Shown here one piece after another: positions 2,142-49,024 of a stretch of DNA of 64,000 nt. The translations under genes were made by a program, and so were the position numbers. The notes beneath the pieces were generated by a model. That model did no database searches and was not told the DNA's origin. It was given only the letters and a program-made list of their open reading frames with translations. The first letter of the stretch is position 1, and each line of letters opens with the position of its first letter. The DNA comes from Myxococcaceae bacterium. GTDB lineage: Bacteria; Myxococcota; Myxococcia; Myxococcales; Myxococcaceae. Location of the stretch: assembly GCA_016793095.1 (NCBI GenBank), contig JAEUJQ010000026.1, forward strand, positions 1 to 64,000, in the 5' to 3' direction.

Positions 2142-4409
2142 CTACAACGACAGCACGAACGCGAGCAGGTCGTCCCGCTCGGCAGGTGTGAGCTGATCGG
2201 CGCGACCGTGGGCAGGCGCCCACCGCTCCACGGCGACCCGCAACGCGAAGCGGCTCTCGACCACGACGGCCTCACCCTGCACGGTGAGCCCCGCGAGCCC
2301 GGTCGTCAGCATGGGGAAGACGTCCCAGGCGCCGACGAGCGCAGGGGCACCGAAGCCCTCGAAGCGCGTGTTCTGCAGCTCGGGCCTCAGCGGCATGAAG
2401 CGCGGCGTGCCGACGTCGATGAACTGGCCGCGCGTCTCGTGATCCTGGTCGAGCGTGTACTGCGGCGCGGGGTGGCAGCGTGCACAGTCGGCCTTGCCCT
2501 CGAAGAGCGCGAGGCCTCGGCGCGGTGAGCCGAGCTTCCCATCGGGCAACGTGAGTGACTCGGCGAGCGCCCCCGTGCGCTCGACGAACGGGTTGGGCAA
2601 CGTGGGGATGAGGGAGGAGTAGAGCGTGAGCGCCTCGATCTCCTCTGGCGTCATCACGGGGTTCTGGAACCGGTTGCGCGTGCCGACCACCTTCGCGGTC
2701 TCACCCATCGAGTGCGTCGAGGCCGGGGTGAAGTAGGGCGGCGTCTCGCGGCTGCCGCGCACGGTGGTCGAGCGATAGATGCGCAGCGGCATCGTCTTCT
2801 CGAAGAGCACCCCTTCGCCGTGGCCCTCGAGGTGGCAGGCATCGCAGCTCATCGCCGTGCGCCCGAGGTCCGCGAAGTAGAGCACCTGGCCCAGCCGCCG
2901 CGTCTTCTGCCCGAGCACGTCGGTCACGCTCCACTGCCCGGCTACGCGCGCCCTGCCCTTCGCGGCGTCCTTCACGTCGAGCGCGGCGACGGTGCCGGTG
3001 AAGCGGTTCAACACGAACAGCGTCCCGCGGTCAGCCGAGAGCACCAGCGCCCTGGGCCCAGAGTGGAGCGAGGGCCCGGCGCGGCCATTGGCGTTGAAGT
3101 CTTCTTCCGGGCGAACGAGCGGGAACCGCGGCGGCGGTGCGAGCGCGACTTCCTGAATGAGCGCCTTCGCGGCGTCAGCATCGGACTTCGCGAGCCGACG
3201 CGCGTCGAGCACGCGGACCAGCCCCAACGAGACGTCGGTGGCGTAGAGCAGGCCTGCAGCGTCGTCCAACGCGAGCGCCTCGGTCACGCCCGCCCCGAAG
3301 CCGAGGTGCCGCTGCCAGGAGAGCCCGCTGCCCTTCGACGACCCCGACGGCAACGCCAGAGAGGCGACGCCGCCGTTCATGCTCACCTCCATCTTGTCCG
3401 GGTTGGGGCCGATGTTCGGGCCGATGCTGGAGAGGAAGAGGCGCCCGAGCTTCGTCGAGGCGATCAGCGCGCGGGGGGCCTTCCCGTTCATGACGAACGC
3501 CTGGTACCTCGCCGTCGTGCCTCCGACGATGGCGGTGCCCGGGCCAGGCTGGGTCGTGGCCAGCACCCGACCCGACGTGGGGTCGAGCAGCTCCACCTCG
3601 CCGGTCTGCAGAGAGCCGACCGCGAGCCCCGCCGGGGTCAACGCCATCGCGCGAGGGTTGGGCGCCACCGGAGTTCGCCAGCGCTCGCGAAAGCCCGCCG
3701 TCGCGTCGAGGGCGCTGACGGTGTCGCGCGCCTGCTCCGCGAGGAAGACGGTGTCGCGGTCGACCGCGAGGCCTGACGCGTTGGCGAGCGCGGGCACCCG
3801 GCTCACGACGGGCGGCGCCGCGGCGGTGTCCACGATCGCGAGCTCGGCAGAGAAGAGGTGGCTCACCACCAGGCTCGACGGCCCCAGCGCCGCGACCGCG
3901 CTCGGCCCATCACCCACCGACACCCGCGTCACCGCCTTCGTCGAACGATCGACGAGGTAGAGGGTGTCTTCGGTCGTGCTGACGACACCGAGGACCCGCT
4001 CGTCGTTGGTGCCTGCCATCGCCACCAGGTCGGGGAACTTCGTGTCGTTGATGAAGCGCAGCTCGGCGCGCCCGCTGCCGCCGGGCAGCGTCGCCTCGAT
4101 GACGACCTCGGGCGCGAGGCCGAGCTCGACGGACGCGGGCACGCGCGCGAACGCATGCTGGTCGTCGAGGACCGTGAGCGGCAGCTCGAGCGACGCCGGC
4201 GGACCCAGGCGCAGGCTCGGCGCCTTCGTCAGGCGCTCACCGGTGATGCTGATCGGTGTGCTCGTGGCGTTCGAGAGCAGTCGCGGGCCGACGGCGCGAA
4301 GCGTGCTGGTGGACGGCCCCGCGTCGGGAACCGCCAGCGGAGCCGCGGTGTCGGCTCGCTTGCACCCCAGGGCGAGCAGCCCCAGCAGGAGCCACCAATG
4401 TCGTTGCAT
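2142..4409 (-). CDS. Lipoprotein with beta-propeller and two c-type haem (MauG/peroxidase-like) motifs
   Basis: The chosen ATG at 4409 gives a lipoprotein signal (LLALGC, then Lys at +2); an upstream in-frame start lacks a sensible signal. Residues about 60-490 look like repeated YVTN/YncE-type propeller blades (for example DTVFLAEQARDTVSALD, GTLFVLNRFTGTVAALD). The C-terminal third carries two CxxCH haem c sites (CDACH and CARCH), as in di-haem cytochrome c peroxidase/MauG relatives. The family is known for periplasmic redox chemistry, but the substrate is unknown. In Myxococcus xanthus, Lys at +2 has been linked to release into the extracellular matrix (from memory), so surface exposure is possible. 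The gene diverges from the Glt-like operon across an 84-bp gap. Confidence in the domains is good; the function is inferred. Confidence 0.75.
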   Translation of the reverse strand: MQRHWWLLLGLLALGCKRADTAAPLAVPDAGPSTSTLRAVGPRLLSNATSTPISITGERLTKAPSLRLGPPASLELPLTVLDDQHAFARVPASVELGLAPEVVIEATLPGGSGRAELRFINDTKFPDLVAMAGTNDERVLGVVSTTEDTLYLVDRSTKAVTRVSVGDGPSAVAALGPSSLVVSHLFSAELAIVDTAAAPPVVSRVPALANASGLAVDRDTVFLAEQARDTVSALDATAGFRERWRTPVAPNPRAMALTPAGLAVGSLQTGEVELLDPTSGRVLATTQPGPGTAIVGGTTARYQAFVMNGKAPRALIASTKLGRLFLSSIGPNIGPNPDKMEVSMNGGVASLALPSGSSKGSGLSWQRHLGFGAGVTEALALDDAAGLLYATDVSLGLVRVLDARRLAKSDADAAKALIQEVALAPPPRFPLVRPEEDFNANGRAGPSLHSGPRALVLSADRGTLFVLNRFTGTVAALDVKDAAKGRARVAGQWSVTDVLGQKTRRLGQVLYFADLGRTAMSCDACHLEGHGEGVLFEKTMPLRIYRSTTVRGSRETPPYFTPASTHSMGETAKVVGTRNRFQNPVMTPEEIEALTLYSSLIPTLPNPFVERTGALAESLTLPDGKLGSPRRGLALFEGKADCARCHPAPQYTLDQDHETRGQFIDVGTPRFMPLRPELQNTRFEGFGAPALVGAWDVFPMLTTGLAGLTVQGEAVVVESRFALRVAVERWAPAHGRADQLTPAERDDLLAFVLSL

Positions 4410-4493
4410 GCGCGTTCCCGTACCACATGCCAGCATGGAGCTTCGTACTCCTTGACCAATCGGCTCACGCTTCGGTTAACGTCCGGAGCCGAC

Positions 4494-4889: not shown

Positions 4890-7091
4890 GTGAGTGGACA
4901 GCCCTCCGTCCTCCAGGTGGTGATCTTGCGGGACGGCCTGTTGGTGGGCACCGAGGTGTTCGTGCCTGGCCAGTACGCGCTCGGCTCGGGCGATCACGTG
5001 GATCTCCGCCTCGACGATCCGTCCGTCGCCGCCAGTCACGCGACGCTCTATTTCCAGAACGGCCGCGCGGCGATCCAGGACGCTGGCTCTGGAGCCGTCT
5101 TCGTCAACGGCCACCGCGTGAACGCCTGCGAGGTGCGCGCGGTGGACGAGATCGCGTGCGGTCCGTTCACCCTGAAGGTGCGGGTGTTGTCGCAGAAGCC
5201 CGCCGCCAAACCTGCGCCGCCTCCCGAGGTGGCCGCGCTGCTCGGGTCGCAGCAGCCTCAGCAGCCTGCTCGGCCGGCCCCGGTCGCCCCTGCGCGTCCA
5301 CAGCCGGCTCCGGCTGCGGCGCCTGCTCAGCCCAAGTCCGCCCCGGCCACGGTCGTCTCCGCACGGCGGATGAACACCGCACCCCAGGTGTCCGACTCCG
5401 CCGTCACCGCCAGGGCGACCCCCGCGCTCCGCGCGGTCCAGCCGGTCCCCATCGAGGAGCACGAAGAGAAGACGGAGAGCGTGGCGCTCGGCGCCGACCT
5501 GCTCGACCCGACCGGCCGCGTCCGCCACGATCCGCAGATGACGGTTCCTCTGATGCCAGAGGAGCCACCGCCGCCTCCTCCGCCGTCGGTTCCGCCGCCG
5601 CAGCAGCCCGCGCCCAGGGTTCAGGCCCGACCGGCCCCGGCCGCGGAGGCACCGGCGCCCGTCGCTCCAGCACCGAAGCCTCAGCCTGCGCCGCCAGCGA
5701 AGCAGCACCACAAGGCCGCGCCGCAGCCTCAGCGCCGCGAGGGCCATCGGGCGCGTCCCACGCCTTCCATTCCGCCTGCGAACGAGGGCAAGGGCCGCCC
5801 CCACCTCTTCGTCGAGCTCTACTGGGGTGAGACGCGCCGCTACGCCACGTCCCACGCCAGGATCGATCCCAAGAAGAAGCTCATCGCCCGCGACGATGAC
5901 ACCGCCCCCCTGCCGCTGTGGGGCTTCGGCACCGAGGGCTCGGACTTCGTGTTCGCGGAACAGCAGAAGGATCTGTTCCGTGTCTACGTGCCTGCGCAGG
6001 CCGCCGTCGAGCGGCGCGCCCAGGACGGCAACTTCTACCCGGTTCAGGCGGAGTCGCTCGAGGTGGGGCCCGGCCAGCGCCGGTGCGTCACCCTGGGTTC
6101 GGGGCACGCCGTGCGCTTCACGGGCGACAAGGAGATGACGCTCGTCGCGTATGTGCAGCCCGCGCTGCCCCGCCCGTTCGTCAACCCGCTCAAGAAGATG
6201 CCCTGGCTGGTGCTCGCGTTCCTCGGGCTCTTCGGCAGCGCCTTCATGGCGTTCGCGCTCTACGCGTACCAGCCCGAGTCGGCGGACTTCAACGCGAAGA
6301 ACGTGCCGCCCGTCGCGGTGCGCCTCATCGCCCCTCCGAAGAAGGAGGAGAAGAAGAAGATCGAAGAGAAGATCAAGGAGCTCAAGAAGGAGAAGCCGAA
6401 GAAGGAGGAGCCCAGGGTCGAGAAGCAGGTGCCGAAGGCCGTGCCGCAGGAGACGAAGAAGGCCCTCAAGTCGGTCGAGAAGCTGGTCGCGGCAGGCCCC
6501 GCCATGAAGGACCTGCTCGCCGCCGTCGACAAGCTGGGCTCGGGGCCGGGCGCGAAGAACGCGAAGAACGACTTCAAGCTCTCGGGCCTCATCGGCAAGG
6601 CGCCCATCGCGAACGCGGGCATCGGCACCTTCGGGCTCGGCGGCGGCGGTGGTGGCGGCATGGGCATCAAGGGCGCGGAGCTCTTGCGCGGCAAAGGCGG
6701 CGGCGGCATCGGCGCGCTCGGCGCAGGCAACATCGGCAAGGGCAAGGTCGGCGGCGCGGTGACGTCAGCGGTGAGCCGCAACATCGGCGCACAGGGCACC
6801 ATCGACAAGGACGCGGTCGCGAAGGCCATCAACGCGCACCTGCATGAGGTGTCGAGCTGCTACGAGCGCGCGCTGCTGAAGGAGCCCGGCCTCGCGGGCA
6901 AGATCGTGCTCGAGTGGCAGATCACCACGTCGGGCAGCGTCGGCTTCGCCAAGACCAAGTCCTCGACGATGAAGAGCTCGGCGGTCGAGGGCTGCATCCT
7001 CAACTCACTCAAGACCTGGCGCTTCCCGCCGGCGAAGGGCGCTGGCGTGCTCATCACCTACCCGTTCATGTTCAACTCCGTCGGGTACTGA
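4890..7091 (+). CDS. GltG/NfsG-like inner-membrane protein: FHA domain, TM helix, TonB-like AgmX/PglI C-terminus
   Basis: The 733-residue product starts at GTG 4890 behind GAAGGAG. Order of parts: a cytoplasmic FHA domain (about 8-100, with the Ser-His pair at 49-50 and FVNG), a long Pro/Ala/Gln-rich linker (105-300), a second beta-rich globular block (about 303-430), one transmembrane helix (about 437-460), a charged Lys/Glu segment, a Gly-rich stretch (about 585-625), and a C-terminal TonB-like domain (about 640-733). The last domain has the two cysteines and the WRFPP motif of the AgmX/PglI family. In M. xanthus, GltG and NfsG of this layout link cytoplasmic signals and the motor to periplasmic parts. 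FHA domains bind phospho-Thr, which suggests control by Ser/Thr kinases. I cannot tell Glt from Nfs by eye. Confidence 0.85.
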   Translation: MSGQPSVLQVVILRDGLLVGTEVFVPGQYALGSGDHVDLRLDDPSVAASHATLYFQNGRAAIQDAGSGAVFVNGHRVNACEVRAVDEIACGPFTLKVRVLSQKPAAKPAPPPEVAALLGSQQPQQPARPAPVAPARPQPAPAAAPAQPKSAPATVVSARRMNTAPQVSDSAVTARATPALRAVQPVPIEEHEEKTESVALGADLLDPTGRVRHDPQMTVPLMPEEPPPPPPPSVPPPQQPAPRVQARPAPAAEAPAPVAPAPKPQPAPPAKQHHKAAPQPQRREGHRARPTPSIPPANEGKGRPHLFVELYWGETRRYATSHARIDPKKKLIARDDDTAPLPLWGFGTEGSDFVFAEQQKDLFRVYVPAQAAVERRAQDGNFYPVQAESLEVGPGQRRCVTLGSGHAVRFTGDKEMTLVAYVQPALPRPFVNPLKKMPWLVLAFLGLFGSAFMAFALYAYQPESADFNAKNVPPVAVRLIAPPKKEEKKKIEEKIKELKKEKPKKEEPRVEKQVPKAVPQETKKALKSVEKLVAAGPAMKDLLAAVDKLGSGPGAKNAKNDFKLSGLIGKAPIANAGIGTFGLGGGGGGGMGIKGAELLRGKGGGGIGALGAGNIGKGKVGGAVTSAVSRNIGAQGTIDKDAVAKAINAHLHEVSSCYERALLKEPGLAGKIVLEWQITTSGSVGFAKTKSSTMKSSAVEGCILNSLKTWRFPPAKGAGVLITYPFMFNSVGY

Positions 7092-7386
7092 GCCGCACCC
7101 CGGCAGTCGAGCAGTCGATCGCTCCCCGCGCACCTGCGAGCTCCTGCTGGTCCGCTCCGCCCGAGCGGCAGCCAGTCGTGTTCGCCGCGTCGTCGCTCGA
7201 TCTTGCCGACGCGCACCGGGCTGCCGAGCTCAGCCTGCACGCACGGCCGCGCTCACCTCGGGCTCCGCGCTCCTCCGCTGAGCGGGCGAGTCGTTTTCGT
7301 GTTTGTTTTCGACGCGCGCGGCCTATCATCGCCGCCGTTTTTCTCGACGCCTCGCGCCTGACACATCAGGGCGCGGGAGGGGTGAC
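7092..7386 (+). other. Non-coding gap inside the Glt-like cluster, probable second promoter and leader
   Basis: This 295-bp gap separates the FHA/TonB-like gene from the beta-barrel genes, whereas every later gene pair overlaps or nearly abuts. It holds a perfect 6-bp hairpin (7152-7157 with 7163-7168, loop CGCCC) without a T tract. A locally T-rich stretch (7292-7309) is followed by TATCAT at 7324-7329, which could be a -10-like element. A second hairpin sits just before the next gene. A separate promoter for the outer-membrane half is plausible but not shown. Confidence 0.35.
7353..7382 (+). promoter_or_regulatory. Leader hairpin abutting a strong ribosome site before the first beta-barrel gene
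   Basis: Bases 7353-7361 pair with 7366-7375 as a 9-bp stem with one bulged G and a CACA loop. The 3' arm runs directly into GGGAGGGG (7375-7382), which sets the GTG start at 7387. A stem touching the ribosome site could tune translation of the following overlapping genes. This is visible in sequence only, with no functional evidence. Confidence 0.35.
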
Positions 7387-8028
7387 GTGCACAGAGCGAT
7401 ACTCGCGCTGACTCTTGTTTCTCCGTTCCTCGCCTGGGGACAGACGGAGCTGTTGGAACCGCCTCCGTCGAGCGTCTACGCGCTTCAGGATCGGTACTAC
7501 CGGCTGCAGAACGAGTTCACCTTCATGGTGGGCTTCCTGCCGTCGGATCCGTACACCAAGGGGCTCACCGCGCAGGGAGGCTACGCCTTCCACTTCAACG
7601 ACTACTTCGGCATTCAGGCGCGCGGCGCCTACGCCATCGAGGTTCCCACCTCGCTCAGGCAGCAGCTCGAGCGCGACTTCACGGTGCTCCCCACGGCCTT
7701 CCAGCGGGTGCAGTTCTTCATCGGCGGCGACCTCATCTTCCGACCGCTCTACGGCAAGCTCTCGGTGCTCAACCGCTCCATCGTCCACGCCGAGCTTCAC
7801 CTGCTCGCGGGCGGCAGCGCGTTCGGGTTCACCGATGGCCTCACGCCGTCGCTGCGGCCCGCGCTCGACGTCGGCGGAGGTGCCCGGGTGTTCCTCGGCC
7901 GCAACGCGAGCCTCAGGCTCGATCTGGTCAACCACATCGTGCTCGCGGCGCCCGGCTCGATGACGGGCATCACCAACGTGCTGGCCGTTCACTTCGGCCT
8001 GGCCGTCAACTTCGGCGGGACGGAGTGA
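7387..8028 (+). CDS. GltA/NfsA-like outer-membrane beta-barrel protein, first paralogue
   Basis: The 213-residue product starts at GTG 7387, chosen because GGGAGGGG lies at the right distance and gives a proper signal peptide (VHRAILALTLVSPFLAWGQ). An earlier in-frame start would add an unlikely 28-residue head. The mature part alternates amphipathic strands, with aromatic girdles and a terminal strand ending near Phe-Gly-Gly, as in small outer-membrane barrels. The block GDLIFRPLYGKLSVLNR is shared with the next gene (GSDVMWKPLYGKLAVMNR). In M. xanthus the paralogous barrels GltA and GltB (NfsA and NfsB) form the outer-membrane module. It sits 2 bp before its paralogue, so the two are surely co-expressed. 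Confidence 0.8.
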   Translation: MHRAILALTLVSPFLAWGQTELLEPPPSSVYALQDRYYRLQNEFTFMVGFLPSDPYTKGLTAQGGYAFHFNDYFGIQARGAYAIEVPTSLRQQLERDFTVLPTAFQRVQFFIGGDLIFRPLYGKLSVLNRSIVHAELHLLAGGSAFGFTDGLTPSLRPALDVGGGARVFLGRNASLRLDLVNHIVLAAPGSMTGITNVLAVHFGLAVNFGGTE

Positions 8029-8030
8029 CC

Positions 8031-8678
8031 ATGTCAGCCAGGACGCTCTGTGCAGCCGCCGTCAGCCTCGCCCTCAGCCTCGGCTCCACCGCGCTCGCGC
8101 AGGTGAACGAGCTCGAGAACCCGGGCGTCACCTCGGCCGTTCAGGACAGGCCGTATCGCCTGCTGCACGAGCTCGACCTGTGGTTCGGGGTGCTGCCGCT
8201 CGACGCCTTCTACGTCGGGGTCTTCGCGCAGGTCGGCTACGTGTACCACTTCACTGATCGCTTCGCGTGGCAGGTGGGCCGTGGCGCCTACGGGCTCGCC
8301 GCGCGCACCTCCCTGCGCAGCGAGCTGGAGCGCACCTTCGGGGTGCAGCCCACCGCCAACGACGAGGTGCAGTTCTTCGTGGGCTCCGACGTGATGTGGA
8401 AACCGCTCTACGGGAAGCTGGCGGTGATGAACCGGCTGGTCATTCACGGAGAGGTGCACCTGCTGGGCGGCGTGTCGCTGTTCCGCTTCACGAACTCGGG
8501 CTTCCGGCCGGGCATCAACCTCGGTGGCGGCGGCCGGATCTTCCTCAACAAGTGGGTCAGCTTCCGCCTCGACATCACCCACAACGTCGTCATCCCCACG
8601 GGAGGCGGCACCACCAGCTTCGCCAACGTGATGACGGCCAACCTCGCGCTCGCTCTCAACTTCGGGGGGAACGACTGA
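8031..8678 (+). CDS. GltB/NfsB-like outer-membrane beta-barrel protein, second paralogue
   Basis: The 215-residue product starts at ATG 8031; an overlapping GTG two codons upstream is less likely. The signal peptide ends ALAQ near residue 25. It aligns by eye along its whole length with the preceding gene: the ELENP and QDRPYRL start, the SLRSELERTFGV helix-like insert, PLYGKLAVMNR, the glycine-rich GGGGRIFL strand and the final LALNFGG. This is an old tandem duplication that has diverged. The barrel probably pairs with its neighbour to make a heteromeric outer-membrane pore or foothold, as proposed for GltA/GltB. Its stop overlaps the next start in ATGA, which implies translational coupling. 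Confidence 0.8.
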   Translation: MSARTLCAAAVSLALSLGSTALAQVNELENPGVTSAVQDRPYRLLHELDLWFGVLPLDAFYVGVFAQVGYVYHFTDRFAWQVGRGAYGLAARTSLRSELERTFGVQPTANDEVQFFVGSDVMWKPLYGKLAVMNRLVIHGEVHLLGGVSLFRFTNSGFRPGINLGGGGRIFLNKWVSFRLDITHNVVIPTGGGTTSFANVMTANLALALNFGGND

Positions 8679-10267
8679 TGATCCGCGCCCGACTCCTCCT
8701 GGCCTCCTGCTGCTTCGCCACGTCGCTCGCCGCGTCCGCGCAGGCTCCCGGCAAGCCCGCCGACCCCGTGACGGGAGAGCCGGCCCAGCCCGCCGCCGCC
8801 GCCGGTGACGGTGGCGTGGCCTCGATCGCCACCTCGACCGTCGGGACCGGAACGGGGGCCGCGCCCGTCGCCGCGCCCCCGCCTCCCCCCAAGAAGATCG
8901 ACCCGAAGCTGTTCGACGACGCGCTCAACGACTACTTCGCTGGTCGTCCGCGCGAGGCAGCGCCGAAGCTGTTCGAGTACACCGAGAACGTGCCCTCGAC
9001 GGACGAGAACTACGCCTGGGCGCAGTTCTTCCTCGCGCGCTCGCTCATCGAGCTGAAGCTGCACCACGCTGGCGCGGTGTACCTGGCGCGCATCGCCCGC
9101 GAACGCACGAACCCCGCGGTGCTCACCAAGGCGCTGGCCGAGCTGCAGCTCTTCACCGACCGCGCGCACGACGAGGTGATGATCGACGAGCAGGTGTTCG
9201 GAGCCCTCGACCTCGGCTTCCTGCCCGAGGACATCGCCGGCTACGCCCACTACCAGCAGGGCCTCGTCGATCTGCGCGTGGGCAACGAGCGGTGGGCCAC
9301 GACGCACTTCGCGAAGCTGCCAGAGGGCGGCACCGAGGCCTCGCGCGCGAAGTACGCGATGCTGGTGACCCGCCTCAAGCAGGCCAAGAAGGATCTGCCG
9401 AAGGAGATGATCGATCAGTTCTTCGAGCTCGCGCAGGATCCCAAGCTGACCCAGGACGCGCGCAACGACGCCATGCTCGCGGTGGCGCGCCTTCGCTACG
9501 AGCTCGCCGACTACACCGGCGCCCTCGACGCCTACAACCTCGTCAAGCTGCCCTCCCTCGACCCCGGTCGGGCGGCGCTCTACCTCGAGGAGGCGTGGAC
9601 GCGGTACCAGCTCGGCCAGGTGCACGCGGCCATGGGCCTGCTCACGACGCTCGACGCGCCGTCGTTCCGCGAGGAGTTCCTGCCGGACAAGTTCCTGCTC
9701 AAGGCGCTCATCTACCGCGACCTCTGCCACTACCTGCCCGCCAAGCGCTCGGCGAAGGAGCTGACCCGTCGCTACAGCGAGTCGCTCGACGCGGTGCGGG
9801 ATCGTGACGACCTGACGCGTGACCCGCGCCTGCTCCGCGCCGCCTCCGCCCGCGGCAGCACCCGGCGCGCGCGCCAGTTCCTCGAGTCCCTCGAGCTCGA
9901 GGGCGAGCAGCTCGGGCGCTTCGCCGGCACCTTTGGAGAGCGCATGTTCGGCTACATGACGCGGCTCTACGATCTGTCCCGCGCCGAGGCGGTGCGCATC
10001 TACCAGCAGCGCCTGACCGAGGCCGTGCGCGTCGAGGCCGACAAGCTGCTGCGCGCAGCCGAGCAGGTGCGCCTCATGGAGTACGAGGTGGGCCTCAAGC
10101 TCTACGAGCGCGTGAAGAAGGGCGCGAAGCTGGTCGCGCTCATCGAAGAAGAGCCCCTCAAGGCCAACCAGGTGTCCTTCAAGTTCACCGATGAGTACTG
10201 GAACGACGAGCTGCGCACGTACCGCTTCTCGCTCAAGTCCCGGTGCATCGAGGAGACGGCGCGATGA
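8678..10267 (+). CDS. GltC/NfsC-like periplasmic TPR protein
   Basis: The 529-residue product starts at ATG 8678, overlapping the previous stop (ATGA). It has a signal peptide (residues 1-22, ending ASAQ), then a Pro/Ala/Gly-rich linker to about 72. A long helical body follows, with TPR-like pairs (for example FLARSLIELKLHHAGAVYLA, AVARLRYELADYTGALDAY, LEEAWTRYQLGQVHAAMG). The last 150 residues look like longer coiled helices. In M. xanthus GltC is a periplasmic TPR protein that associates with the GltA/GltB barrels. The gene order barrel, barrel, TPR seen here matches gltA-gltB-gltC and nfsA-nfsB-nfsC. It is probably periplasmic, bridging barrel and inner parts. Assignment by position and fold is fairly strong; direct homology was not tested. 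Confidence 0.75.
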   Translation: MIRARLLLASCCFATSLAASAQAPGKPADPVTGEPAQPAAAAGDGGVASIATSTVGTGTGAAPVAAPPPPPKKIDPKLFDDALNDYFAGRPREAAPKLFEYTENVPSTDENYAWAQFFLARSLIELKLHHAGAVYLARIARERTNPAVLTKALAELQLFTDRAHDEVMIDEQVFGALDLGFLPEDIAGYAHYQQGLVDLRVGNERWATTHFAKLPEGGTEASRAKYAMLVTRLKQAKKDLPKEMIDQFFELAQDPKLTQDARNDAMLAVARLRYELADYTGALDAYNLVKLPSLDPGRAALYLEEAWTRYQLGQVHAAMGLLTTLDAPSFREEFLPDKFLLKALIYRDLCHYLPAKRSAKELTRRYSESLDAVRDRDDLTRDPRLLRAASARGSTRRARQFLESLELEGEQLGRFAGTFGERMFGYMTRLYDLSRAEAVRIYQQRLTEAVRVEADKLLRAAEQVRLMEYEVGLKLYERVKKGAKLVALIEEEPLKANQVSFKFTDEYWNDELRTYRFSLKSRCIEETAR

Positions 10268-13200: not shown

Positions 13201-13710
13201 TACGAGACCTGCCTCGCGCGCGCCGACTCGCTCGAGGTCTTCAGCGCGGCCGTGGTGGGCTGCCGCAAGAAGGTGGACGAGGCGAGCTCGCCCCTCTCCG
13301 GGCCGCCGGCCGAGCGCCAGGTCAACGTCGAGGACCTGCAGAAGAAGGCGGAGCAGACCCAGAACGCGGCCGACTTCGAGGCGGTGGCGATGGCCTTCCT
13401 CGGCGCGGGCCAGGTGAACAACGCCATTCTCAACCTCAACCGCGCCCTCGAGATCGACGAGTCGCGCGCGTCGACCCACTCGGCCATCGGCTACGCCTTC
13501 CTCCTCAACGGCGACGCCAACGCCGCGCGCGCCGAGTATGGCAAGGCGCTCGAGGCCGACCCGACGTTCGACAAGGCGCGCGCCAACCTCGCCGCGCTGC
13601 GCTGCCGCTTCCTCGACGTCGAGGGCGCCAAGCGCGAGACGAGCGTGCTGAAGGACGCGTCGAGCCTCACCGGCCCCGACGTCGATCCCGCCTGGAAGAA
13701 CTGCAAGTGA
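10264..13710 (+). CDS. GltD/NfsD-like giant periplasmic TPR protein
   Basis: The 1148-residue product starts at ATG 10264 within ATGA of the previous stop; it has a signal peptide (MNAVTLLLAASLLAQ). The body is a solenoid of tetratricopeptide pairs. Recognisable units include FRLAELYVEKSRYVYYL, FNIARAYYEDGDYKKSAELFKEF and, near the end, a classical unit with SAIGYAFLLNGDANAARAEY. A Lys/Asp/Ala/Pro low-complexity insert at about 470-486 splits the solenoid. In M. xanthus GltD/AgmU and NfsD are TPR proteins of similar size that span the periplasm as the core scaffold, which fits this place after the GltC-like gene. The stop overlaps the next gene's GTG (GTGA). Confidence 0.75.
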   Translation: MNAVTLLLAASLLAQAPNSALENPLVTRQREKQDLVDKLRRDIFKVDRSINETDKLIAKSRNAPYLPDLQFRLAELYVEKSRYVYYLQAETRPEGAKGALVSPETKLLKQKAMQIYNRILREFPDFKDADKVTFYLAHEQREMGEFDNMLKTLADLVKKYPSSPLRLDSEQILGDYWFDKADLKQAEDHYKAILDAPPSPVHDLARYKMGWIRINQQNHNEAVTFFEAAAASAPLPGTDLSKALNVKREALLDLVYSYTEARPAKGAIQYFEKLSESRATFSLALDKLSNRYFIKQQFEFAIPALRKLLEIQPDPELEVERVGKLYDSLKAAKGKVQPKPEDVAFLVRAAVQVKLDPTKDEPSRKRTLAELEEMGRDLSTSIHAQAQKKEDKALYVEAAAAYQRYLGLFRPRQYATVIMQNRADALFAAKRYVDAARQFEELAVYLDAKDPKAAEKKADASKDTMDVAKDAPKDAPKDAPKDAPKDAKAGKEAPKDSRLAAVATVGAPGAQSQRTMSDTKSHDEALYGALLAHFSALKPGEVERLTTFEVADARQALKLLGSQFIGRYPKNEHALEVKFNIARAYYEDGDYKKSAELFKEFALSHADHKDAVVAGNLAFDSLRQLNDFKAIEEYGKAFLAANLPPAFKADVTKILNQSKADALGELALKSSEETGDVITGLLKVADENKGQEIGEKALYGAFVAAREKRDLRKEREIGERFIKEYQKSQFLSDVMITLGRHAAEAGRFQDAAAYFEQMGKQFAGDATGLDSLLSSARLRMAMGDNVGAIKVLEQTVEQAGARKVEVLTLLAQTHMKMKAPGKARATAEQVMKIDKVNATAAAIICEVAASTPGEKVEPLVAMMQAVTNSPNAAGDDPAKAIWYLAEMLYRQFKAIPNDKVEDKVASLQQLQGLYQQAASLGSAEWAVASLWRIANSLQHIAEAVEATPPPAGLKPNEIEEFRAAVKQQVDPLKEQANNTYETCLARADSLEVFSAAVVGCRKKVDEASSPLSGPPAERQVNVEDLQKKAEQTQNAADFEAVAMAFLGAGQVNNAILNLNRALEIDESRASTHSAIGYAFLLNGDANAARAEYGKALEADPTFDKARANLAALRCRFLDVEGAKRETSVLKDASSLTGPDVDPAWKNCK
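11671..11718 (+). repeat. Four in-frame 12-bp repeats encoding Asp-Ala-Pro-Lys
   Basis: Four near-identical 12-base units (gacgcgccgaaa and variants) encode DAPK four times in the GltD-like protein, flanked by further Lys/Asp-rich codons. The tract probably forms a flexible charged hinge, and its copy number could vary between strains. Confidence 0.8.
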
Positions 13711-14309
13711 CGAAGGTGACGCGCCACCGCCGCCTCGCGCGGCTCGTCGGGCTGGTCCTCGTGGCGACGGCCACCTGGGGCTGCTCTCCACCGCCAGGGC
13801 AGGTCGCGCCTCCGCGGTTCCGCCTCGAGGGCAGCCTCACCCAGTTGATGGCCCTGGGCTACGACGAGTGTCGGCTGCGGCTCGACTACGACCCGAACAA
13901 CCCGGCCCCCACCGACACCCTGGGCATCGAGTTCGTGCGGCTGCGCCCCATGGGCTCGGGCTCGCTCGACGACGGCGGCATGGCGATGGCGGGCGACAGC
14001 GAGGACATGGTGCTGAAGATCGGCTACCTGCTCGCCGGCGACGCGCCCCCGGCCAACGCGCGCCTCGATCTGACGTTCCTCGATCAGAACGGCATCTCGC
14101 GCACCACGCTCTCGCGCAACGTCGCCAACGACCCGCGCCGGGCCTTCCCTCCGCTGCGGGTCGGCAGTCTCTTCCTCGATCGCGCACCCGACCGGCTCGC
14201 GATGAACATCGTCAACGGTGAGTTCAACCTCACCTTCGAGAACGGCATCGAAGTGGCTTCCGGTCGCACCGTCTTCGGACGCTTTGCGGCCAAGGTGATC
14301 CCTCCATGA
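13707..14309 (+). CDS. Predicted lipoprotein inside the Glt/Nfs-like operon, no recognised family
   Basis: The 200-residue product starts at GTG 13707 (GTGA overlap with the previous stop); an in-frame GTG at 13716 is the alternative. An Arg-rich start and hydrophobic core end at WGCSPP near residue 26, a usable but not ideal lipobox. The mature part is beta-rich, with a motif around FLDQNGISRTTLSRNV and a final VFGRFAAKVIPP. I do not recognise a family. Its place between the GltD-like and GltE-like genes, coupled on both sides by 4-bp overlaps, says it belongs to the machine. GltK-type outer-membrane lipoproteins are a possible parallel in M. xanthus, but nothing in the sequence proves it. 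Confidence 0.65.
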   Translation: MTKVTRHRRLARLVGLVLVATATWGCSPPPGQVAPPRFRLEGSLTQLMALGYDECRLRLDYDPNNPAPTDTLGIEFVRLRPMGSGSLDDGGMAMAGDSEDMVLKIGYLLAGDAPPANARLDLTFLDQNGISRTTLSRNVANDPRRAFPPLRVGSLFLDRAPDRLAMNIVNGEFNLTFENGIEVASGRTVFGRFAAKVIPP

Positions 14310-44503: not shown

Positions 44504-44992
44504 GTGACGAACGAGGCGCTTGGCCAGCTCTACACGCGGTACGGCGCGTACGTGCACCGGCGCTGCCGTGCCTTGATGGGGAATGACGCTGACGCGAACG
44601 ACGCCCTGCAGGAGACCTTCATGCGCGTGCAGCGCTACCCCCCTGGCGAAGACGTGATGGCGCTGCTGCCGTGGCTCTACACGGTGGCAGCCCGGGTGTG
44701 CTTCGACCAGCTCGCACACCGCCGGCGCGCGGAGCCGATGGGGCTCCTCGGCCGGGTGACGGCGTGGTTCGACCGCCCCACGACCGGCTCGGTGGAAGAG
44801 AAGCTGTGCCTCGGCGGGGAGCTGGCCCGCCTCGACGAGACGACGCGCGAGATGGCGATGCTGCACTGGCTCGACGGGCTGACGCAGGACGAGGTGGCCA
44901 CGAAGACGGGCTACTCGCGCAAGACGGTGGGGGTGAAGCTGAAGAGCGCCGAGGGCGTGCTGCGTGAGGCCCTTCGTGGAGGCGTGACATGA
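44504..44992 (+). CDS. ECF-type RNA polymerase sigma factor
   Basis: The 162-residue product starts at GTG 44504. Region 2 (about 8-75) includes DANDALQETFMRV and LPWLYTVAARVCFDQLAHRRR, which binds core polymerase and the -10 element. Region 4 (about 104-155) has a helix-turn-helix in DGLTQDEVATKTGYSRKTV for the -35 element. No region 1.1 or 3 is present, as in ECF factors. The stop overlaps the anti-sigma gene start (ATGA), the standard ECF/anti-sigma arrangement, so activity is probably held by that partner until an envelope signal. The likely targets include its own operon. Confidence 0.92.
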   Translation: MTNEALGQLYTRYGAYVHRRCRALMGNDADANDALQETFMRVQRYPPGEDVMALLPWLYTVAARVCFDQLAHRRRAEPMGLLGRVTAWFDRPTTGSVEEKLCLGGELARLDETTREMAMLHWLDGLTQDEVATKTGYSRKTVGVKLKSAEGVLREALRGGVT

Positions 44993-45684
44993 GAGGCCCC
45001 GACTGCCCCCCTCGCATCGAGCTCGAGCGCCTCGCGGCCGGCGAAGACGTGCCAGCCATCGCGCCCCACGTCGCGGGTTGCGCGGCGTGCCAGGCGACGG
45101 TGGCGACGCTGCGCAGCGACGCCGACGCCTTCCTCCGCGCGCGCCCGGTGGACCGCTTCCTGGGGCAGCTCGACACCGCGAGGGCCAGGAAGGCGTCGTC
45201 GCGACGGGGGCTCGTCGTGGCCCTTTCGGGCGCGCTCGCCGCGGCGGTGGTGGTGGCGCTGGTGCTGCCAGGTGAGCCGCAGCCGGGGGTGCACTTCAAG
45301 GGGGCGCTCGCCTCGGTCCTCGTCAAGCGTGACGGCGTGGTGCGACCGCTCCAGCCGGGTGAGGTGCTCCAGGCCGGCGACGCGCTGCGCTTCTCGGTGA
45401 CGGTCGAGCGCCCCGGCTTTGCCGTCGTGCTCAATCGTGATGGCCGTGGGAAGGTGACGGTGGTGGCGCCCTTCGAGGCCACGGGCCCGCAGGCCATCGG
45501 CGAAGGGACGACGGTGCTCGAGGACTCGGCGGTGCTGGACGCGACGGTGGGCCGCGAGACCTTCGTCACGGTGTTCTCGCCGCGACCGTTCGAGGTGCCG
45601 CCGCTGGTGCGCGAGCTCGCGGCGTCGAGCCCCGTTCAGTGTGGAGGCTGCGTCGTCGAGACGGCGTCGTTCGACAAGCGATGA
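44989..45684 (+). CDS. Zinc-finger transmembrane anti-sigma factor with large periplasmic part
   Basis: The 231-residue product starts at ATG 44989. The N-terminal cytosolic ZAS-type motif is HVAGCAAC (His27, Cys31, Cys34). One TM helix (about 74-93) is followed by a periplasmic beta-rich domain (about 100-231), which is larger than in simple anti-sigma factors. It resembles the DUF4384-like domain often placed between regulators and caspase-like proteins. Two close cysteines (QCGGC) near the C-terminus could sense redox or bind metal. It is predicted to tether the ECF factor at the inner membrane and release it on an envelope cue. Coupled on both sides by ATGA overlaps. Confidence 0.85.
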   Translation: MRGPDCPPRIELERLAAGEDVPAIAPHVAGCAACQATVATLRSDADAFLRARPVDRFLGQLDTARARKASSRRGLVVALSGALAAAVVVALVLPGEPQPGVHFKGALASVLVKRDGVVRPLQPGEVLQAGDALRFSVTVERPGFAVVLNRDGRGKVTVVAPFEATGPQAIGEGTTVLEDSAVLDATVGRETFVTVFSPRPFEVPPLVRELAASSPVQCGGCVVETASFDKR

Positions 45685-47231
45685 GGCGCGCGCTCGCGAC
45701 CACCTGCCTGTGCGTCGCGGCCGTCGGGTGGGCCGCAGAGCCGGTGCGCCTGGTGGTGAGCCTCGGGAGCAACTACGGCGCCGCCGACGACGTGGTGCTG
45801 CAGCACGCCGAGGCCGACGCCGCCCGCGTGCGGGAGGTCTTCGTCGAGCTGGGCGGCGTCGAGCCTGGCCGGGCCCTCGTGTTGACGCGCCCCACCGCGA
45901 CGCGCGTGCGCGAGGCGTTCGCCGAGGTGACCGGCCGCATCGCCGAGCTCACGGGCGCGGGCCGGGAGGTGCAGCTGTTCGTCTTCGCGACCTCGCACGG
46001 CCGTGACGGGGCGCTCCGGCTCACCGGCTCGACGTTGCCCATCGCCGAGCTGAAGGCCCTGGCCCGGGGCACCCGCGCGAGCCTGCGCGTCGTGGTGGTG
46101 GACGCGTGCGAGGCGGGCGTGCGGGCGAAGGGCGCGACGAAGGGGCCGGCGTACCAGCTCGACCTGGGCCGTCCCGAGACGACCGGCGACGTCTTCATCT
46201 CGTCCAGCGGGGCCGCGGAGGCCGCGCAGGAGTGGGAGGCGCTCTCGGGCTCGCTCTTCACGCACCACCTGCTGGCGGCGCTGCGGGGCGACGCCGACGC
46301 GAACCAGGACGGCCGGGTCACGCTCATGGAGGCCTACGGCTACGCCGAGCGTCGCACCGTCGCCGAGAGCCTCGACGTCGGTCAGCACCCGCAGTTCGAC
46401 GTCGGCCTGGCGGGCTCGATGGACGTGACGCTGACACAGCCGGGCGTGGCGCGCGCGAAGGTGGTGCTGAACGAGGGGCTCGAGGGCCGCTTCGTGGTGG
46501 TGAGCCAGCCGCGACCCGACGTCGTCCTCGAGGTGCAGAAGCGCCGCGGCCGCCCGCTGGCGCTCGCGGTGCCGGCCGGGCGCTACGTGGTGCGCCAGGC
46601 GCGCGGCTTCTCGGTGGCGCTGCAGGAGGTCGAGCTGCCGTTCGGCGGCGTCGCGCGCGTGGACGGCCGGGGCTTCGTGACGCGCGACTTCGGCGAGGTG
46701 GCCCTCAAGGGCGGCGTCATCGAGTTCCACCCTCACGCGCTGCGGGTGACGGGCGGAGGCACGAGTCCGCTCATGGCTGACGGCCCGCTTCGGTGGAGCC
46801 TCGGCCTGTCGTACCGCGTGGCCATCGGGACCCTCTGGGGCCTCATCGGCGTCGCGTGGGGCGCCTCGCGGTTCGGCGGAGACGGCCTCACGGTCTTCGA
46901 TCACCGCGTCGCCGCGCGCCTCTCGGCGGGGCCGCGCTTCTGGCTCGGTCCAGTGGTGTTGATGGTGGGCGGCCTCGTCGAGGTGTCGTGGCTGCGGCAG
47001 GCGTTCGTGCGCGACCGGGAGGCTGAGATCCAGCGCTCCTACCCTGCCCTGCCGCCGCGCATGACGGTGGGGGCCGCACTGGGCCCGCAGGTGCTGGCCG
47101 AGCTCCCGCTCGTCGGGCCGCTCTTCGTGACGGCGGGCGCGGCGGGGGTGCTGCGCGTCCTGCCGGTGCAGGGAGCGCCCCTCTGGTCGCCGGGGCTCGA
47201 CGTCGAGCTGGGGTTGGGAGCGCGGCTGTGA
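45681..47231 (+). CDS. Secreted caspase-like (C14) cysteine protease with C-terminal envelope domain
   Basis: The 516-residue product starts at ATG 45681. The signal peptide ends VGWA (about 18). Residues 20-260 are a caspase/metacaspase fold with both catalytic positions: His106 in ATSHGRDG and Cys143 in VVDACEAG. An SSSGAAEAA loop and DGRVTLMEAY follow, as in other bacterial caspase-like proteins. The remaining 250 residues are beta-rich with membrane-like segments (about 385-500) that look like an outer-membrane barrel or several TM strands. A protease tied to a sigma/anti-sigma pair by overlaps suggests regulated proteolysis in the envelope, or an output of the sigma factor. Substrate unknown. 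Confidence 0.85.
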   Translation: MRRALATTCLCVAAVGWAAEPVRLVVSLGSNYGAADDVVLQHAEADAARVREVFVELGGVEPGRALVLTRPTATRVREAFAEVTGRIAELTGAGREVQLFVFATSHGRDGALRLTGSTLPIAELKALARGTRASLRVVVVDACEAGVRAKGATKGPAYQLDLGRPETTGDVFISSSGAAEAAQEWEALSGSLFTHHLLAALRGDADANQDGRVTLMEAYGYAERRTVAESLDVGQHPQFDVGLAGSMDVTLTQPGVARAKVVLNEGLEGRFVVVSQPRPDVVLEVQKRRGRPLALAVPAGRYVVRQARGFSVALQEVELPFGGVARVDGRGFVTRDFGEVALKGGVIEFHPHALRVTGGGTSPLMADGPLRWSLGLSYRVAIGTLWGLIGVAWGASRFGGDGLTVFDHRVAARLSAGPRFWLGPVVLMVGGLVEVSWLRQAFVRDREAEIQRSYPALPPRMTVGAALGPQVLAELPLVGPLFVTAGAAGVLRVLPVQGAPLWSPGLDVELGLGARL

Positions 47232-49024
47232 GGCCCCTCGCTGCGCTGCTCGCGCTCAGTGTCCTCTGCTGCACACCCGCCGGCGTGGTTGGCACCCGCT
47301 ACCGCGGCGAGCCGCTCTTCACGGTGCGGGGCCAGTTGGTGACGCCGAGCGCCGCGCCCACCGCGCCCATCCGCCTCGCAATCGCCTGGTACCCCGACGA
47401 GACGAGCAGCACCGCGCCGCGAGCCATCGTCACCCAGGAGGTGGTGTACGAGGGCAGCTTCCCGCTCAACTACACGTTCAGCTTCTTCACGGTGCCGCCG
47501 CCCGGAGTGCTGACGGAGTACCGCGACGGCGACGAGGTGACGCGCGCGGCGTTCGGCGTGCTGCTCGCGTACCAGGACGTGGACGGCAACGGGCAGCTCG
47601 ACGCGATCCCCGCGGGCGGCCGGGCGGTGGACCGCGTGCTCGGGACGAGCGTGGGCGACACGTACAACGGCGCGCCGGCCGAGGCGCCGCTGTGGGTCGC
47701 GTACGTCGAGGGCGCTCCGGGGCGACGGTGGACCGGGTACGCAGCGGGCTACAACCTCTGGGAAGCGCGCGCGCGGCAGGTCGTCCCATCGGACACCGGC
47801 GTGCCCATTCGTCTCGACGCCACCAACGAGCTCGCCTTCTTCGTCTGCGACGAGTTCATCTCCGGCAGCGCGTACGGCTTCGATCTGCCCTGCAACGTCG
47901 AGCCCACCGGCGGGCTGCGGGTCATCGGCAACGTGCAGCGCACCGACGGCGTTCCAGCCATCGCCCTGCGCATCACCGACGGTCGCGCCCCCGTCCCCGG
48001 CCTCGTCGTCGAGCTCAACGACGCTGGCGTCTCCTTCGACACCGCGAGCGGCAACTACACCGCGTCCGGCGAGGTGCCCGTGACGGCGCCGGGCCTCAAC
48101 GTCGTGCGCGTGCGCGCGCCGAACCGGGAGCCGATCGTCTTCACCGTCGAGGCGCCGGGTGACTTCTCGCTGCTGGCCCCCAGAGCCGGCGCGCGAGTGC
48201 TCGCCGGGACCCCGCTCGTCGCGCAGTGGGGCCGGGCGCCGGGCGCGCTCTTCTACCAGGCGCAGGCCTACGCAGTGACGCCGCCTCACGACGGGCCGCC
48301 AGCGGTGCTGGTGTACGACCGCCAGGAGGCGTCGCTCTCGGCGCGGCTCGAGGGCCTGACTCGCGACGATCACCACGAGGTCCTCGTCAGCGCCTTCGCG
48401 CCCCGCTACCTCGCGCACGGCCGGGGCGGCTCGCTCGTGAACGCGTTCGTCAGCCACAGCGAGACCGTCGACGTGCTGCCGGCCGACGTGGGCGGGTGGC
48501 TGTCGGGCGTCGCGCTGGTGAGCCGGTACCAGGGCCAGTCAGGCGGATCGGTGTGGGTCGAGGCCTTCGACGGCGTCGCGCCCGTCACCAACGCCCTCGT
48601 CACCGCCAACGGCGAGGCGCTCACCTTCGACGCCATGACCGGCGAGTACGGAGCGACGGTGGCGCTCCAGCCCGGTGACGTCGCCCGCCTCGGGCTGACG
48701 TTGCCGGGGCAGGCGCGGAAGTCGTTCGACCTTCCCCTGCCCGGCGACTTCACCGTGACCGCGCCACCGCGTTCCCACCCCACCCGCACGCCGCTGCGCC
48801 TCGAGTGGACGCGCGCTCCCGACGCCAGCGACTACCGCGTCAGCGTCACCGACCCCACCGGGCGGAGCCTTCACTTCGCCGTCGTGAGCGATCACAGCGC
48901 CACGGTGCCGGCCCTCGACGCGGTGGGCGACGTCTTCGTGACCGTCACCGCTGCGCGCCAGTCGTCGAGCCGCCATCGGTTCGGGCTCGTCCAGCAGTCC
49001 TTCGACGTGACGCTGACACCCTGA
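47228..49024 (+). CDS. Secreted or lipid-anchored multi-domain protein closing the caspase operon
   Basis: The 598-residue product starts at GTG 47228 (GTGA overlap). An N-terminal signal with Cys15 or Cys14 (VLCC) is a weak lipobox. Residues 25-220 are a first domain with an FLxDVDGNGQLD-like Ca2+-style loop. The rest is a series of beta-sandwich modules (about 230-330, 330-420, 430-510, 510-598), each ending in a 'PGDF(S/T)V' phrase followed by a fibronectin III-like strand set. It is probably the exported partner or substrate of the protease encoded just upstream. No catalytic motif is visible. Confidence 0.7.
   Translation: MRPLAALLALSVLCCTPAGVVGTRYRGEPLFTVRGQLVTPSAAPTAPIRLAIAWYPDETSSTAPRAIVTQEVVYEGSFPLNYTFSFFTVPPPGVLTEYRDGDEVTRAAFGVLLAYQDVDGNGQLDAIPAGGRAVDRVLGTSVGDTYNGAPAEAPLWVAYVEGAPGRRWTGYAAGYNLWEARARQVVPSDTGVPIRLDATNELAFFVCDEFISGSAYGFDLPCNVEPTGGLRVIGNVQRTDGVPAIALRITDGRAPVPGLVVELNDAGVSFDTASGNYTASGEVPVTAPGLNVVRVRAPNREPIVFTVEAPGDFSLLAPRAGARVLAGTPLVAQWGRAPGALFYQAQAYAVTPPHDGPPAVLVYDRQEASLSARLEGLTRDDHHEVLVSAFAPRYLAHGRGGSLVNAFVSHSETVDVLPADVGGWLSGVALVSRYQGQSGGSVWVEAFDGVAPVTNALVTANGEALTFDAMTGEYGATVALQPGDVARLGLTLPGQARKSFDLPLPGDFTVTAPPRSHPTRTPLRLEWTRAPDASDYRVSVTDPTGRSLHFAVVSDHSATVPALDAVGDVFVTVTAARQSSSRHRFGLVQQSFDVTLTP

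Follow-up and report, generated by a model that had tools for sequence, protein, structure and literature searches.

A GltD-linked lipoprotein marks a further Glt-type gene cluster, widespread in the order of Myxococcaceae and distinct from the gliding machine

The lipoprotein of 200 residues that is encoded directly after a GltD-like scaffold protein in a stretch of 64,000 nucleotides from a Myxococcaceae bacterium (the whole stretch is called the window in what follows) is, with good support, a real part of a widely conserved gene cluster. This lipoprotein, here denoted X, marks a further Glt-type cluster, which is widespread in the order and distinct from the gliding machine. As to its role, the reading that we are inclined to accept, if only just, is that X is a subunit of the machine encoded by the cluster and an outer-membrane adaptor, which would connect the GltD scaffold and the beta-barrels with an adhesin-type lipoprotein carrying TSP3 repeats. 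The genes of the cluster are collected in Table 1.

Table 1. Genes of the cluster around X, with their positions in the window and the scores of their profile matches.
Feature	Position	Strand	Remarks
TSP3-repeat lipoprotein, 536 aa	477..2087	-	relative of surface proteins of MtsD/CglD type; 99.6 bits with NF047639, under its cut-off of 800
764-aa protein	2142..4436	-	weak beta-propeller/cytochrome-like matches; divergent from GltG
GltG-like protein, FHA domain and AgmX/PglI C-terminal domain	4890..7091	+	NF033760 164 bits, below cut-off 650
Outer-membrane beta-barrel, GltA/B-type	7345..8028	+	start approximate; TIGR04565 99 bits, above cut-off 60
Outer-membrane beta-barrel, GltA/B-type	8025..8678	+	TIGR04565 101 bits, above cut-off 60
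GltC-like protein	8678..10267	+	NF033756 85 bits, below cut-off 450
GltD-like TPR scaffold, 1148 aa	10264..13710	+	overlaps X by 4 bp; same context in relatives
X, lipoprotein, 200 aa	13707..14309	+	start GTG; predicted beta-rich domain
Coiled-coil lipoprotein, 208 aa	14306..14932	+	not GltE-like; overlaps X by 4 bp
TPR protein, 645 aa	14945..16882	+	weakly GltE-like, judged by TPR content and gene order; 78 bits, cut-off 225

A preliminary description of this DNA had placed a lipoprotein gene at the position of X, and the gene is real. Its frame is open for 200 codons, from a GTG at 13707, preceded by a GGAAG motif, to a TGA at 14307-14309, and its product begins with a signal peptide, after which residue 26 is a cysteine (TWG-C), in a lipobox that seems imperfect when judged by eye. 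The GC content of the three codon positions is 0.69/0.50/0.91, and in comparison with relatives from the same genus substitutions are commonest at third positions. From these two observations follows that X is coding. Processing as a lipoprotein and a beta-rich fold are predicted for the product. Among the relatives of X, glycine or serine predominates right after the lipobox cysteine (eight rows fall outside the lipobox pattern used), which would be compatible with sorting to the outer membrane. The window protein matches the profile of the family here called X/X2, of which X2 is the sister branch described below, and it has the lipoprotein cysteine that is the second mark of this family, while a scan of window X against Pfam and NCBIfam returned no family. 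A search for promoters of the sigma-70 type found no match, and terminator-like sites were near the number expected by chance (nine found vs 7.8 expected).

The start of X and the stop of the GltD-like gene share the four bases GTGA at 13707-13710, and the stop of X shares the four bases ATGA at 14306-14309 with the start of the next gene. When 51 loci were compared base by base (six rows having been dropped, five as duplicate fetches and one as truncated where its contig ends), the upstream overlap was kept in 46 of them and the downstream one, as NTGA, in 49, where it should be noted that the loci are related and do not count as independent events. From these numbers follows that the coupling of X is conserved and not due to chance. 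Both overlaps had been pointed out in the preliminary description, which took the gene after X to encode a GltE-like protein. This second part does not stand: hhalign gives the coiled-coil lipoprotein a probability of 1.2% against GltE and 0.3% against NfsE, and the identification was rejected. The protein that by TPR content and order is a weak GltE-like member is the one encoded thereafter; other TPR models give it a better score than that of GltE does.

The cluster is of the Glt/Nfs type. It encodes a GltG-like protein with an FHA domain (33 bits over a cut-off of 20.7) and a C-terminal domain of TonB type (myxo_SS_tail, 106 bits over 40), two barrels that score above the GltA/B-type cut-off, and, in order, GltC- and GltD-like TPR proteins, of which the GltC-like one falls below the gliding equivalog cut-off. 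The corresponding cut-offs of the gliding machine are missed also by the GltG-like and the weakly GltE-like protein (Table 1). Another contig of the window genome encodes a GltG that scores 914.5 bits and thus exceeds the gliding cut-off of 650. From this follows that the cluster in the window encodes a paralogous machine and not the gliding machine, and the earlier suggestion that X defines a version of the gliding machine is contradicted, since the X cluster is a separate machine of Glt type. The Nfs sporulation machine (nfsA-H) shares the same core of barrels and GltC-, GltD-, GltE- and GltG-like proteins, but differs in that nfsD and nfsE overlap directly, with no X between them. Elsewhere in the window, positions 44504-49024 hold a gene for a protein with Sigma-70 region 2 and, closely packed behind it, unassigned genes.

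When X is used as a single query, matches are found in 81 of the 96 genomes of its GTDB family, a number that includes one genome (G050) with X2 alone. The X profile finds at least 89 of the 147 genomes of the class and at least 102 of the 195 genomes of the phylum, the sister X2 being counted in both; the profile counts for X, GltD, the coiled coil and the 764-aa gene are in each case those obtained when, for most genomes, the top first-look candidates are scored. The GltD-linked type of X is defined here by the 82 top-scoring hits of the class-wide profile search, which lie in 80 genomes. In 78 of these 82 hits a GltD-like gene, X and the gene for a coiled-coil lipoprotein follow each other on one strand, with a gap limit of 150 for adjacency and with counts taken from hand-copied tables. 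Each exception is of a different kind. In G027 the GltD match is partial and the gap is 152, in G092 the contig ends, and in G088:C788 (L044) a second, diverged cluster has diverged GltD and coiled-coil genes on the two sides of X. The last one, G047:C152 (L033, 14797-15243), is a lone X with neither GltD nor the lipoprotein of about 450 residues, to be introduced below, in its vicinity. Extra diverged copies of GltD type in the same family are found at G009:C167:792-2687 and in L044.

The presence of X follows that of GltD. Window-type GltD (E 1e-70) occurs in at least 81 of the 96 family genomes, and X occurs in 80 of those 81; in the one genome that lacks it (G048), some 100 bases separate GltD from the end of its contig. 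Among the best first-look candidates, GltD-linked X is found in none of the 15 family genomes without window-type GltD: 14 of them have no match at all to the X profile, and G050 has X2 alone. These absences include four of the six genomes of genus g3 and all four of genus g7. To see what this joint presence and absence says about function, consider the case where X is an independent protein of cohesion or of the cell surface, which shares an mRNA with the machine without touching it. Such a protein could well have a sister, X2, encoded outside Glt clusters and beside other lipoproteins, and a lone copy like that in L033 (G047:C152) would be in line with it. One would then not expect to find GltD-linked X in 80 of 81 genomes with GltD and in 0 of 15 without, nor overlaps conserved on both sides of the gene, and we regard this independence as quite unlikely.

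In the order, X adjoins GltD in families f1, f6, f7 and f8 and, in a hybrid locus, in f2. The gene order of the window, with X included, recurs in the three further families f6, f7 and f8 (L116, L117, L119, L121). X is also present in M. xanthus, and this, together with its spread over the families of the order, contradicts the earlier view that X would be lineage-specific; what the homology and synteny searches bring out is wide presence with the GltD-linked order kept. In the gene calls of M. xanthus, neither of the two pairs leaves space for X: the overlap is one base between gltD and gltE and four bases between nfsD and nfsE. The preliminary description is right that M. xanthus has no component at these places. 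That X is missing between these pairs is what speaks for a part confined to one lineage and defining its version of the gliding machine. Against this count the presence of X in M. xanthus and in several families of the order and the location of the gliding GltG on another contig than the window cluster, and the proposition is most improbable.

M. xanthus has four gltD homologues, which belong to the gliding set, to Nfs (spore coats), to G4 and to G5. The Glt-type clusters of strain AM003 (G079, with coordinates equal to those of G147) were located by searches with GltD, GltC and the barrel family of the window, and the regions were read. Among the best 24 of 135 candidates, the X profile finds at least two genes in this genome, X and an X2 about 25 kb away, and neither of them lies in the gliding or Nfs clusters. 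M. xanthus X is found in the loci L054 and L096, and the order in L096 is GltG, barrel, GltC, GltD, X, coiled coil, TPR; one barrel was found instead of the two in the window, and the gene order is otherwise alike. A Myxococcus-like cluster with X is present also in L055 (BNCN01000002.1), a record titled Comamonas sp. KCTC 72670, which probably comes from a mislabelled or mixed genome. Of the other AM003 contigs, C8 is G1 (GltE 746 bits) and C31 is Nfs. On contig C76 an MglB-like gene and a gene for a small GTPase lie just upstream, both below cut-offs, which we take, from the mgl locus numbers, to be mglBA beside G4. The contig with G4 ends about 1.2 kb after the GltD homologue.

By elimination, the X cluster of M. 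xanthus is the G5 cluster of Luciano 2011, the gltD homologue of which is MXAN_1327 according to the available sections of that paper (PMC3169522). The same sections state that motility was unaffected by polar mutations in the gltD paralogues, MXAN_1327 among them, that the functions of G4 and G5 were unknown in 2011, and that the AglRQS-type proton motor of M. xanthus is encoded in a separate cluster, M1; their account of G5 does not mention X. In the available part of PMC10196010, MXAN_1327 is grouped with a Tad-like pilus, a grouping that would not be supported by the GltD-like TPR nature of its presumed gene. In the open-access literature no paper naming MXAN_1324, 1325, 1326 or 1328 was found, and MXAN_1328 is absent from the work after 2014 on Glt, Nfs and AglR that was found there (PMC4488436, PMC12288465, PMC5349195).

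GltK, which is the same protein as CglC and AgmO (MXAN_2538), is likewise a small lipoprotein in a Glt-type system. Its gene is divergent from gltBAC, whereas X lies between GltD and the coiled-coil lipoprotein, downstream of GltD, and is read in the same direction as the barrels and GltC. M. xanthus GltK/CglC (L092:213-731, 172 aa) scores 198 bits with NF033754, gliding_CglC, with which window X and M. xanthus X give no match, and an hhalign comparison of the X profile with M. xanthus CglC gives a probability of 0.7% over 14 columns, which cover the lipobox only. X as GltK/CglC was therefore rejected, and the match to a known subunit such as GltK, which the preliminary description had named as the outcome that would speak against a new component, did not appear. 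A similar size and a lipoprotein signal are all that would link X to a diverged GltK/CglC or to another known Glt/Nfs subunit. The absence of any NCBIfam or Pfam match for X counts against such a link as well, and a diverged known subunit is hardly credible.

X could nevertheless act in the way that CglC acts, and this is the main rival to the adaptor reading. In the available part of PMC4488436, CglC is described as a periplasm-facing outer-membrane lipoprotein that serves GltA and GltB, which need it to reach the outer membrane. By analogy, X would be a pilotin-like helper that assists the pair of GltA/B-type barrels encoded in the same cluster to insert into the outer membrane or to remain there. 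X is of similar size, the cluster has two barrels for such a helper to serve, and none of the nine window proteins scanned matches CglC. The similarity between X and CglC is, however, limited to the lipobox, the gene is coupled to GltD and not to the barrels, and in the fetched X2 loci blastp lists no GltA/B-type barrel except in L038, although diverged barrels could escape it. A helper role of this kind is therefore rather unlikely.

The predicted structure of window X is a weak model (pLDDT 65.5, pTM 0.59) with eight strands, and a second model was therefore built on M. xanthus X. This one is good (80.8 and 0.75), with nine strands and one short helix. For both models the top structural match is LpqH, the 19-kDa lipoprotein of M. 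tuberculosis, with 5% identity; the values are Z 5.6, rmsd 3.7 and 102 aligned residues for the weak window model, and Z 7.4, rmsd 3.5 and 101 aligned residues for that of M. xanthus. As Z is under 8 in both cases, the likeness may reflect a common arrangement alone. Apart from these top rows, Z exceeds 5 for further LpqH entries and for one porin (Z 5.5). Lipocalin, avidin and nitrobindin folds appear in rows at Z about 3-5 and are not claimed for X. Foldseek returned nothing below E 0.001 for either model, and a search of the PDB with the X profile gave no match, the best E being 0.35.

The sister family X2 is the second branch of the X/X2 family. A tree was made of 74 rows, which are 73 of the 81 profile hits and the window protein, with eight duplicate or partial rows omitted. 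By neighbour, 50 of the rows lie next to GltD, 16 next to a lipoprotein of about 450 residues, one next to both and seven next to neither. One set of 52 rows, with support 95/92, takes in the GltD rows together with the row with both neighbours and the lone copy in L033, while 11 rows beside the 450-aa lipoprotein make up another set with support 100/99; the deep branches of the tree are weak and some branches are long. X2 is found outside Glt clusters and beside other lipoproteins, and one locus (L038) carries both X and X2. The 450-aa lipoprotein is encoded within 2.5 kb of X2 in 17 of the 23 X2 loci that were fetched (for example L027:8148-10051, L120, L105 and L112) and in six of 23 it is not; beyond the 17, L106 and L107 have a weak relative by protein search. 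Pfam assigned no family to those relatives of the 450-aa lipoprotein that were scanned first, and one of the four in a second scan gave BNR with E 3.6e-6, just under the cut-off.

A relative of the TSP3 lipoprotein of the window is encoded, counted anywhere in the fetched stretch, in 13 of the 23 X2 loci and in none of the other 10. In L105, L112 and L115 the genes for X2, the 450-aa lipoprotein and the TSP3 protein form one run on the same strand, whereas in L120 and the loci of Myxococcus type they are divergent or separated by several genes; in the X2 loci of Myxococcus type it is the TSP3 gene that stands several genes off. Pfam finds TSP3 repeats in the matching relatives that were scanned and a VWA domain in four of them, from L105 and L112, and the best score of the TSP3 relatives near X2 with the NCBIfam MtsD model (NF047639) is 685 bits vs a cut-off of 800. 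The window protein at 477-2087 is homologous to these X2-linked TSP3/VWA proteins (blastp E down to 5e-34, profile E 4e-33), and it is a homologue of MtsD and not a member of that family (Table 1). Cohesion-type lipoproteins related to MtsD are encoded near X2 in 13 of 23 loci and a relative of them flanks the window cluster, where the function of MtsD in cell-cell cohesion is taken from the name of the NCBIfam family alone. X itself is not MtsD-like and differs in this from these lipoproteins.

The 764-aa gene, which stands between the TSP3 gene and GltG in the window, is present in at least 77 of the 96 family genomes among the best first-look candidates, and in all 56 genomes where it shares a contig with the GltD-like gene it lies within 12 kb of that gene and is divergent to it, a count that was likewise taken from hand-copied tables. 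One genome (G050) has the 764-aa gene without window-type GltD, and five (G021, G044, G048, G049 and G081) have GltD without the 764-aa gene. No relative of the 764-aa protein was detected in the X2 loci. The hybrid locus mentioned above (L113, 2-4820, minus strand) comes from one contig of one genome, G103, which is 88% complete, and it combines GltD (E 7e-34), the 450-aa lipoprotein (6e-15), X (3e-21) and the coiled-coil lipoprotein (2e-11) in a run that is apparently interrupted by one gene on the opposite strand. At the contig end a further protein begins, which gives E 1.8e-4 with the profile of the window TSP3 lipoprotein and is cut before any TSP3 region. It was not found by pairwise search, and from the profile match it is probably an adhesin of the window TSP3 type. 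As far as one contig can tell, L113 is the clearest sign that X2-type neighbours and a Glt-type machine belong together.

The adaptor reading can now be stated as a mechanism. X would be a lipoprotein subunit of a further trans-envelope machine of Glt/Nfs type, most likely anchored in the outer membrane, with its gene coupled to those for GltD and the coiled-coil lipoprotein. It would link the scaffold that GltD forms in the periplasm, and the platform of barrels, to the surface lipoprotein with TSP3 repeats at 477-2087, and an adhesin-like cargo could thereby be held or moved by the machine. In current models, the gliding machine makes similar use of its adhesin. The adaptor role is proposed because the sister branch of X is encoded near cohesion-type lipoproteins with TSP3 repeats, often with a VWA domain, and both this role and the location in the outer membrane are inferred. 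Against it stands that a neighbourhood shared with TSP3 genes is not proof of contact. The adhesin cargo, taken alone, is a tentative proposal that we judge to fall short of an even chance. It is doubtful, though conceivable, that the whole arrangement applies, i.e., that the G5-type machine carries and moves a cohesion-type TSP3 lipoprotein, with X as the outer-membrane adaptor between GltD scaffold and cargo.

The type of machine is known and the cluster was noted in 2011, while X, its family and the tie to cohesion-type lipoproteins appear to be new, as no earlier account of them was found in the open-access literature. X gives the G5-type machine, which is common in the family, a marker gene, and it comes with a sister family that hints at cell cohesion. 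If this link holds, a machine of Glt type and parts of cohesion type would work together.
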